A DNA stretch of 39,414 bases from assembly GCA_023260395.1 (NCBI GenBank), contig JALQVI010000009.1:1-39414 (forward strand), in the 5' to 3' direction. Under the pieces are notes generated by a model. The model was not told the origin of the DNA, searched no databases, and saw only the letters and a program-made list of their open reading frames with translations. Source of the stretch: Candidatus Nanopelagicales bacterium (lineage in GTDB: Bacteria > Actinomycetota > Actinomycetes > S36-B12 > UBA5976). The position numbers and the translations under genes were made by a program. Positions 5,919 to 18,920 of this stretch are shown one piece after another; position 1 is the first letter of the stretch; each line of letters begins with the position of its first letter.

Positions 5919-5967
5919 GCCGCTTCCGTCATCTTGGCTAACGCCAACGACAAAATAGTTTCAAGCC

Positions 5968-6011
5968 ATAAGCAAAGGCTCCCCGGAATCATCCGAGGAG
6001 CCTTTGCTTAT
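5968..6011. terminator. Bidirectional intrinsic terminator between convergent lpdA and accA
   Basis: Perfect 15-bp stem ATAAGCAAAGGCTCC (5968-5982) / GGAGCCTTTGCTTAT (5997-6011), 14-nt loop, A/T-rich flanks. Confidence 0.9.
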
Positions 6012-6018
6012 TAAGTAG

Positions 6019-7785
6019 TTACTTGATTTCGAGAAGCACCGTTCCGGTTGGAACTGTCGAGCCAACTTCGGCAGAAAGACCAGTCACGACGCCATCTTTG
6101 TGAGCGGTCAATGGCTGTTCCATCTTCATGGCTTCAAGCACAATGACGAGTTCACCAGCAGCAACAGTCTGTCCTTCTTCGACGGCAATCTTGACGATTG
6201 TGCCCTGCATTGGAGCAGCAACGGCGTCACCGCTAGCAGCACCGCCGGCCTTCTTGGCACGCTTGGTTGGCTTCTTTGCACCACCAGCTGATCCACCGGA
6301 GCCAAGCTGCAAGTTCGCAGGCAATACAACCTCGACGCGACGGCCATTAACCTCAACGGTGATTGGGCTGCGCTCTGCAGTTTCATCATCAGCATCAGTT
6401 GTGCCTGTGTAAGCAGGAATGGTGTTGTCGAATTCAGTTTCAATCCATCGGGTATGAACCGAGAACGGGGAAGCAGCATCGACTGGAGCAAACGCAGGAT
6501 CGGCAACAACTGCGCGATGGAATGTCAGCGCAGTTGCAATGCCATCAATCTCGAATTCGGCCAGCGCACGACGGGAACGCTCGAGAGCTTCCTGACGATC
6601 GCGACCGGTCACGATGAGCTTGGCGAGCAGTGAATCGAAGTTACCGCCGATGACATCACCTTGGGTAAAGCCAGCATCCAAACGAACGCCAGGACCGCTT
6701 GGTGGATTCCATGTGGTCAGAACGCCAGGTGCTGGCAAGAAGCCACGACCTGGGTCTTCGCCGTTGATGCGGAATTCAATTGAGTGACCACGAAGTGCAG
6801 GATCGTCGTAGCCAAGAGCCTGACCCTCAGCGATACGGAACTGTTCGCGCACCAAGTCCAGGCCAGCAACTTCTTCGGTAACTGGGTGTTCGACCTGTAG
6901 GCGAGTGTTGACCTCAAGGAACGAAATTGTGCCATCAAGGCCGATCAAGAATTCACATGTGCCTGCGCCAACGTACTTGGCTTCCTTGAGGATGGCCTTG
7001 CTTGACGAGTAGAGCTCATCAATTTGAGCCTGGGTCAAGAACGGTGCAGGAGCTTCTTCAACAAGCTTTTGGTGACGACGCTGCAATGAGCAGTCGCGAG
7101 TTGAGACAACAACAACATTGCCATGTTCGTCAGCCAGGCACTGTGTTTCAACGTGACGTGGATTATCGAGGTAGCGCTCTACGAAGCACTCGCCGCGACC
7201 GAAAGCCGCAACTGCTTCGCGCACTGCTGAGTCAAAAAGTTCCGGAATTTCTTCGATAGTGCGAGCAACCTTGAGGCCACGACCGCCACCGCCGAAGGCA
7301 GCCTTGATTGCAATTGGCAAACCGTGCTCTTTAGCAAAGGCAACAACTTCGTCGCTGTCCTTGACGGGATCAGGCGTGCCCTGAACCTGTGGCGCGCCTG
7401 CCTTCGAGGCAATGTGGCGAGCCGAAACCTTGTCGCCCAAATCGCGAATTGCGGCGGGGGGAGGACCAATCCAAATCAATCCGGCGTCGATGACAGCCTG
7501 AGCAAAGTCAGCATTTTCTGATAAGAAGCCATAGCCAGGGTGCACGGCGTTCGCGCCAGACTTCGTGGCAGCTTCGATGATTTTGTCGATGACGAGGTAG
7601 CTATCAGCGGCTGTTGAACCACCGAGTGCGAAAGCCTCGTCGGCAGCCTTGACGTGCTGGGCATCGCGGTCGGGATCGGCGTAAACGGCAACGCTCTTGA
7701 TTCCAGCGTCTTTGCAGGCGCGTGCTACACGAATAGCAATTTCACCACGGTTTGCAATAAGTACTGACTTGATAGTGCGACTCAC
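6019..7785 (-). CDS. accA: Acetyl/propionyl-CoA carboxylase alpha subunit (biotin carboxylase + biotin carboxyl carrier domain)
   Basis: [47 protein letters not shown], biotinylation motif EAMKMEQ. Confidence 0.95.
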
Positions 7786-17369: not shown

Positions 17370-17972
17370 ATGCTGCGTGATCTGCTATTCACTCCTAGAT
17401 GCATCGGGTGCGCAACTTTAGGGACGCATGTGTGTGTGAAGTGCACGGCCGAGTTAATGCCACAAAGTTTTCACATCAGTGATGGTCGCTATTCCTGTCA
17501 TTGCGTCGGCGCTTATGACGGTTGGCTGCGTGATGCAATCATTCGCTACAAATCCGGAGCTCGTTCAACTGTTTTTGGATTGGCGCTTGCGGCAGCTGCG
17601 CACGTGCCCTTAGGTGGGACGATCGTTCCTATTCCTTCGAGCGCGGCCAAGATTCATGAACGCGGCTACGACACGATGGGGTTGCTCAGCCGTCAGATCG
17701 CCAAGTTACGTCCAGATGTGGAAGTCCAGCCAGTGCTTCGAGTGATGCGACCTGTGGTCGATCAAGTAGGTCTTAATGCCCGAGAACGTCGAGCAAATGT
17801 GGCTGGTGCTTTCCGCAGTGCAGCGGGCCTATCAGGCCGCATTGTGCTCATCGACGATGTCATAACTACGGGGGCAACCATGTCCGAAGGGATGCGTGCA
17901 GCCGAACTTGCAGGAGCAAAAGAAGTTTTTGGATTTTCACTATGCGCAGGCGCCAATAGGGGTTACCTTTAG
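17370..17972 (+). CDS. comF: ComF-family phosphoribosyltransferase
   Basis: N-terminal Cys pairs CIGC / CVKC, PRTase motif IVLIDDVITTGATMSEG. Confidence 0.9.
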   Translation: MLRDLLFTPRCIGCATLGTHVCVKCTAELMPQSFHISDGRYSCHCVGAYDGWLRDAIIRYKSGARSTVFGLALAAAAHVPLGGTIVPIPSSAAKIHERGYDTMGLLSRQIAKLRPDVEVQPVLRVMRPVVDQVGLNARERRANVAGAFRSAAGLSGRIVLIDDVITTGATMSEGMRAAELAGAKEVFGFSLCAGANRGYL

Positions 17973-17975
17973 TTA

Positions 17976-18235
17976 TGGCGCCCACCTGGGTCCGTGATTG
18001 CGGAGCAGACCAGTTCTTCGAAGTTGGTCTGTTTCAAGCCGATGCCAGTCGCAGGCAAAGCGGTCCACGTAAGACGAGTCAATCGTTGAGCACGGTGCGG
18101 TTTAGAAGTAAGCCCTGCCTCGCCGGTAATCCAGATGATTATCTCAAGCGGGAGAAGGTCATTAGTGGCAAAAAGCTGCGAGGACTTCAGCAGGCGGATG
18201 TGGGGTCGAAGATCAGGTCGGCCAGGTGGGCGTCA
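17976..18235 (+). ncRNA. Large structured RNA, probable raiA-type RNA upstream of hpf
   Basis: Closing helix TGGCGCCCACCTGG (17976-17989) with CCAGGTGGGCGTCA (18222-18235), 14 bp with one G-U; internal hairpin CAGACCA (18006-18012)/TGGTCTG (18025-18031), smaller stems AGAT/ATCT near 18133-18144 and CTGC/GCAG near 18176-18193. Sits between comF and hpf, with no credible ORF. Confidence 0.72.
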
Positions 18236-18244
18236 CTATTCACC

Positions 18245-18283
18245 AACTCTGCAACGCGCATGCGTTGTGGAGTTTTGTCGTTT
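18245..18283 (+). terminator. Terminator/attenuator-like hairpin between the structured RNA and hpf
   Basis: AACTCTGCAACGC (18245-18257)/GCGTTGTGGAGTT (18262-18274), 13 bp with two G-U pairs, GCAT loop, followed by T-rich TTTTGTCGTTT. Confidence 0.6.
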
Positions 18284-18296
18284 AAGGAGCACTGCA

Positions 18297-18920
18297 ATGA
18301 CTAAAACAATGCACGATGAACCACTCGAAATTGTGATTCATGGACGTCACTCCAACGTTTCGGATCGCTTTAAAGAATTTGTGACTGACAAAGTCAGCCG
18401 CATCGAGAGGTTTTCGGTTCCCGTGCATCGAATAGACGTTGAAGTCTCCCACGAGGCAAACCCACGACAACACGATCGTGCGTACGAAGTTGAATTGACA
18501 TGCAGCGGCAGCGGGCCATTCCTGCGCACTGAAGCCCATGCATCCGATAAGTACGCAGCGATGGAACTTGCCTACGCAAAATTAGAGGAATGCTTCCGAC
18601 GTATGCATGAACGTCGTCGTTCAGTTCGACATCAGCGACCACAAGTGGATGGCGCATTGCTGGTCGTTAGTGATGTAACCGCACATGACAGCGAAGAGGA
18701 AATTGATGACCCCTCAATCGTTTTGGAATCAGGCCCACTGGTCGTTCGAACCAAAAACATTGAAACCGCTGTCATGAGTGTTGAAAAAGCTGTCGAAGCG
18801 ATGGAACTGCTTGGGCACGATTTCTTTCTCTTTGAAAATGAAGCATCCGGATTACCGAGTGTGATCTACCGTCGTCGAGGTTACGACTTTGGCTTGGTGG
18901 AACTCGGGAAGGCGAGTTAA
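18297..18920 (+). CDS. hpf: Ribosome hibernation promoting factor, long form
   Basis: EIVIHGRHSNVSDRFKEFVTDKVSRIERF; C-terminal dimerisation domain VVRTKNIETAVMSVEKAVEAMELLGHDFFLF; SD AAGGAG 7 nt before ATG 18297. Confidence 0.93.
   Translation: MTKTMHDEPLEIVIHGRHSNVSDRFKEFVTDKVSRIERFSVPVHRIDVEVSHEANPRQHDRAYEVELTCSGSGPFLRTEAHASDKYAAMELAYAKLEECFRRMHERRRSVRHQRPQVDGALLVVSDVTAHDSEEEIDDPSIVLESGPLVVRTKNIETAVMSVEKAVEAMELLGHDFFLFENEASGLPSVIYRRRGYDFGLVELGKAS

Follow-up and report, generated by a model that had tools for sequence, protein, structure and literature searches.

We analyzed a window of 39,414 nucleotides of contig sequence from what is most likely a freshwater actinobacterium of Candidatus Nanopelagicales, an order within class Actinomycetes. 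A genus-specific pattern of the RNA described below matches mainly metagenome-assembled genomes (MAGs) from lakes and ponds. At the locus under study, the gene order is mtrB-lpqB-comF-RNA-hpf-AlkZ-like-MFS, and 324 nt separate the comF stop codon (ending at 17972) from the hpf start codon (ATG at 18297). A preliminary description, made from the sequence alone, had reported four properties of this gap: a long-range helix between TGGCGCCCACCTGG and CCAGGTGGGCGTCA, a local stem CAGACCA/TGGTCTG, a further hairpin with a T-rich tail just before hpf, and the lack of a convincing protein. All three structural elements are present (Table 1). The tail of the hairpin is TTGTCGTTTA, and the local stem (18006-18012/18025-18031) corresponds to P2 of the fold given below; the coding question is taken up with the other alternatives.

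Table 1. Features of the comF-hpf region, in window coordinates.
Feature	Position	Strand	Evidence or remarks
comF (ComF-family phosphoribosyltransferase-like); 3' end holds predicted promoter	17370-17972	+	TIGR00201, 67.8 bits, E 1e-18, below the curated cut-off
Predicted -10 hexamer TACCTT, in comF 3' end just before stop codon TAG (17970-17972)	17964-17969	+	TANNNT conservation
raiA (ModT) RNA gene, ~260 nt including 5-bp extension of closing helix	17976-18235	+	RF03072; fold z = -5.3
P1 extension and P1a, 5' strand	17976-17989	+	pairs with 18222-18235, 14 bp, one G-U
P1b and P1c (5' strands 17992-17999)	17992-17994/18219-18221; 17995-17999/18211-18215	+	190-193/193 paired; 7 double-change events
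P2, variable hairpin after P1c turn, with CAGACCA/TGGTCTG	18002-18036	+	34-nt insert relative to Rfam model; predicted fold
P3a and P3b (18039-18063)	18039-18041/18061-18063; 18044-18046/18054-18056	+	all six pairs 194/194; 11 double-change events
P3 loop, 7 nt, one half of pk-1	18047-18053	+	pairs with 18096-18102
pk-2 (5' side 18093-18094)	C18093-G18208; G18094-C18207	+	U-A and G-C in C. acetobutylicum
pk-1 partner strand	18096-18102	+	six of seven pairs 193-194/194, seventh 171/194
P6, enclosing P7 and P8 (18114-18194)	18114-18118/18190-18194; P7 18119-18123/18148-18152; P8 18156-18159/18184-18187	+	P6 194/194 paired
P1a and P1 extension, 3' strand	18222-18235	+	pairs with 17976-17989
13-bp hairpin with T-rich tail, possible intrinsic terminator between RNA and hpf	18245-18274	+	recurs in nearest relatives
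hpf (long-type hibernation-promoting factor), neighbor outside RNA	18297-18920	+	PF02482, PF16321, TIGR00741

We counted neighboring genes at the 174 loci where the RNA is flanked on either side by 1.2 kb or more. On the strand of the RNA, comF lies upstream at 153 of these loci and hpf lies downstream at 128. Such a preference is already known: PMC11706538 quotes comFC beside 74% and raiA beside 66% of raiA RNAs. The window has this usual setting, with both genes adjoining the RNA. A possible link to competence through comF proved uninformative, as ComEC is encoded in 40 of 44 genomes of the family, with or without the RNA.

Several departures from this arrangement were observed. In f55 (L114, L115, L137, L140, L147, L148 and L156) and f90 (L120, L129 and L136), the comF open frame enters the RNA by about 38-107 nt, so the 5' strand of P1 seemingly lies inside the comF coding region. 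In f65 (L099, L101, L104, L105, L107, L110, L111, L117 and L121), hpf precedes comF but is encoded on the other strand, and the RNA is directly downstream of comF. In f66 (L123, L127, L130, L135, L138, L143, L144 and L146), comF is on the opposite strand, there is no hpf within 2.5 kb and the RNA is isolated. Genus g6, which belongs to the family of the window (L239-L243), has a short HPF: its open frames are about 105-137 aa long and seem to lack the C-terminal domain present in the window's HPF. The AlkZ-like DNA glycosylase gene that adjoins hpf in the window (PF06224, 18936-20198, minus strand) has no same-locus match in several relatives.

Family membership and covariation of the fold

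We scanned the whole window against Rfam 15 using cmscan. The sole match anywhere in the window is to RF03072 (raiA RNA), at 17981-18230 on the plus strand; it covers the full model (positions 1-209) and scores 147.2 bits (E 1e-38), relative to a gathering cut-off of 101.3 bits. The raiA-type class that the preliminary description had proposed is therefore borne out, both by this full-length match and by covariation that extends to both pseudoknots. The raiA RNA is strictly single-copy in each genome with a match, including one copy found in the host's assembly, which is 78% complete. Carriers amount to 41 of 168 genomes of the order, 103 of 396 sampled genomes of the class and 113 of 299 sampled genomes of the phylum.

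The 260-nt segment has a predicted folding energy of -109.9 kcal/mol, which was equaled by none of 200 shuffled sequences. For a test of the individual helices, we aligned 194 raiA RNAs with MAFFT and counted changes in base pairs on trees built without the tested columns, using as controls the same counts with the pairing partner slid. Within P1a, the part of the closing helix that belongs to the Rfam model, about 139 double compensatory changes were counted, versus 4-29 in slid controls, and each pair is formed in 90-99% of the sequences. The 5-bp extension of P1, which is outside the Rfam model, adds about 70 double-change events; its pairs are formed in 67-93% of the relatives, with broken pairs commoner towards the end of the helix. 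The long-range helix of the preliminary description is thus upheld by compensatory changes along both of its parts. Double-change events also number 14 in P6, 54 in P7 and 54 in P8.

The cryo-EM fold of raiA RNA includes two pseudoknots, pk-1 and pk-2 (PMC11751092). We transferred the numbering of that study to the Rfam alignment by our own mapping, which is based on residues named in its text. The 7-bp pk-1 has 19 double-change events, versus 0-1 in slid controls. The 2-bp pk-2 is part of the cryo-EM structure and absent from the Rfam structure. In the 194 sequences, the first of its pairs reads C-G 94 times (the window included), U-A 94 times and C-A 6 times, with three double-change events. 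This covariation amounts to a nucleotide-level test of the published three-dimensional fold in a distant phylum. Computation thus establishes the family membership and the covariation of all helices and both pseudoknots: the segment is a genuine member of the raiA (ModT) noncoding RNA family. The class itself is already known, and the window contributes an additional member.

Persistence of raiA RNA in genomes without hpf

The genus of the window has 23 genomes, nearly all of them draft MAGs, and 19 of these carry raiA RNA. We searched for HPF in whole genomes with both the window's HPF protein and PF02482, and the outcomes were identical. An HPF gene was found in only 5 of the 19 RNA-bearing genomes, versus 361 of the 396 genomes of the class in the same search. 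The 14 genomes in which no HPF gene was detected include ones that are 98, 95, 94, 93, 91 and 90% complete. In two of the genomes (G002 and G020) the order is comF-RNA-AlkZ-like-MFS, and in five others (G015, G013, G014, G016 and G004) it is comF-RNA-MFS; these shortened orders indicate that hpf is gone from an otherwise syntenic locus. On a comF tree, from which G020 was left out, hpf was lost at least two separate times within the genus. The RNA scores no lower where hpf is gone (mean 151.0 bits with hpf and 150.2 bits without, p 0.69). Outside the genus, the RNA is likewise present with no HPF match in f10/g43 (four genomes, one of them 100% complete) and in G046. The converse also occurs in the family: hpf is present and the RNA absent in g2, g3, g5, most of g6 and g8, and sister genera retain comF-hpf without the RNA. 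Because the RNA is retained where hpf has been deleted, it appears to be an independent gene rather than a switch for hpf. Thus, of the preliminary description's raiA-type RNA upstream of hpf, the class stands, while the implied role as an element of hpf does not, given that most RNA-bearing genomes of the genus are without hpf.

One member of the genus (G019, 97% complete) has comF and hpf and gives no RF03072 match. Its comF-hpf spacer (L296, G019:C3, reverse complement of about 5925-6120) retains the -10 element and a P1 helix, TGACACCCACTCGGG / CCCGAGTGGGTGCCA, with 14 of 15 pairs formed, around about 72 nt instead of the 200-nt core. The inner part is weakly collinear with the P1c-P2-P3 region, as 19 of 200 shuffles were equally good. 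We read this spacer as a probable decayed copy that underwent a large internal deletion, and it may instead be a shortened functional form. P1-like helices were sought in the spacers of other RNA-less genera, and none was found except in G019.

Transcription, possible function and alternatives

A TANNNT hexamer lies within positions -24 to -9 relative to the first Rfam position at 173 of 193 loci, compared with 3-15 in windows further upstream. It stands at a nearly fixed distance before the RNA, most commonly as TAGCGT or TATAAT, and was found in 18 of 18 examined members of the genus. In the window, the position of this predicted -10 element would place the transcription start at about 17976, which is the first base of the closing helix. 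A general scan of the window for sigma-70 promoters found none, because the -35 element here is weak. At the other end, T residues are modestly enriched right after P1 (54 of 195 loci, versus 15-23 in controls). Hairpin terminators downstream of the RNA are not general, with 6 of 195 loci versus 3-5 in shuffles. The hairpin of the window is, as a terminator-like site alone, unremarkable (1 found versus 0.6 expected). Versions of it with altered bases are present in the two nearest relatives (G022 and G002), of which G002 has lost hpf and kept the hairpin.

We consider it likely, with good confidence, that this segment constitutes a stand-alone gene for a noncoding RNA of the raiA (ModT) family; the RNA here is probably discrete and trans-acting rather than an hpf leader. 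A promoter of housekeeping type within the 3' end of comF would drive its transcription, which would end either behind P1 or at the hairpin that follows and so yield a stable RNA of about 260-310 nt with one compact, pseudoknotted body. To our knowledge, the molecular function of raiA RNA is not known. In clostridia, trans complementation and an effect on the growth transition have been published (PMC11706538), and by analogy the actinobacterial RNA may also act in trans. Its invariant core would bind a cellular partner, and this binding would modulate the transition from growth into stationary phase. As to the kind of partner, our leading candidate is a protein involved in the metabolism of RNA or in translation, which is a tentative guess made because of the tRNA changes reported in PMC11706538. 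Neither HPF nor c-di-GMP signaling can be an obligatory partner, since there are relatives that carry the RNA and have neither. For most of the phylum sample the gene after the RNA is hpf, and transcription may therefore read through into hpf and the two may be coupled to some extent.

It is important to consider other explanations of the locus. The Rfam type label of RF03072, "Cis-reg; riboswitch", is at odds with the evidence collected here and with the published trans complementation. A cis-acting leader or riboswitch controlling hpf, as that label implies, would fit the frequent position of hpf downstream on the same strand and the terminator-like hairpin between RNA and hpf, a candidate part of an expression platform that is seen in the window and two close relatives only. 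However, the genes directly downstream vary within the genus, hpf in several families is distant, encoded on the opposite strand or missing from the neighborhood, sister genera have hpf and lack the RNA, and clostridial ModT complements in trans (PMC11706538). The retention of the RNA without hpf largely refutes this explanation, which we judge quite improbable. It is improbable, too, that the RNA took over the job of HPF or made it dispensable in the freshwater lineage, permitting the repeated loss of hpf, for example if the RNA of slowly growing cells were itself to bind to ribosomes or translation factors. Within the family, RNA and hpf are negatively associated (Fisher p 0.014), which fits such a replacement, but shared ancestry confounds this association. 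In Clostridioides difficile, ModT affects sporulation via the diguanylate cyclase DccA, and its deletion raises c-di-GMP (PMC11706538). The window genome does encode one GGDEF protein, as a c-di-GMP route here would lead one to expect. Yet such proteins occur in just 3 of the 19 RNA-bearing genomes of the genus, being absent from 16 (one of them 98% complete), and RNA-bearing genomes of f32/g77, e.g., G227, also have none. The c-di-GMP pathway therefore cannot be the general output of the RNA, and we regard its operation here as very unlikely.

A vestigial RNA that survived by chance beside comF might be suspected because the rest of the family mostly lacks it and because G019 retains just the promoter and P1, with an unrelated or truncated core between the P1 strands. 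However, the core is invariant and pairing complete in the genus, and scores are undiminished where hpf is gone, making mere survival highly unlikely. A small protein encoded by a 109-aa frame from an ATG at 17975 is scarcely conceivable: the frame runs stop-free for 87 codons across the RNA in the window, but it is interrupted in 11 of 18 genus members, which means that no protein is conserved, and base changes follow the pairing. The earlier judgment that the gap holds no convincing protein is in agreement with this result.

The discrete, trans-acting RNA gene that we favor gains importance from clostridia, in which few RNAs rival raiA RNA in abundance. The genus provides natural deletions: on at least two occasions hpf was lost and the adjacent RNA stayed intact, and most of the genomes lack GGDEF proteins. 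These deletions dissociate the RNA both from the gene that gave it its name and from the sole pathway to which it has so far been tied, and so narrow the search for its partner. In a limited literature search we found no earlier account of the dissociation from HPF and GGDEF proteins across whole genomes, and we do not claim priority.

Comparison with known raiA RNAs and hpf leaders

Among the closest known systems is ModT of C. difficile, which is abundant, has its own SigA promoter and acts in trans (PMC11706538). The window shares with ModT and RF03072 the helices P1, P3 and P6-P8, both pseudoknots and a full-length model match, as well as the single copy, comF upstream, raiA/hpf downstream and a predicted promoter element just upstream. 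It differs in extending the model by a 34-nt P2 hairpin inserted behind P1c and by the 5-bp extension of P1, and in having C-G rather than U-A in pk-2. The hosts also differ: ModT belongs to a spore-forming clostridium, whereas the window comes from a freshwater actinobacterium whose genus is often without HPF and GGDEF proteins.

For comparison with the cryo-EM structures, the literature that we consulted yielded no solved structure of an actinobacterial member. The raiA RNA of Clostridium acetobutylicum (PDB 9CXF, 9ELY) is 210 nt long and lacks the P2 insert of the window; the base pairs that it forms in P1, P3, pk-1 and pk-2 have counterparts in the window sequence. With mRNA leaders of hpf/raiA genes, the RNA has in common its position between comF and hpf. 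Unlike such leaders, raiA RNA outlasts the deletion of hpf and has a predicted start of its own.
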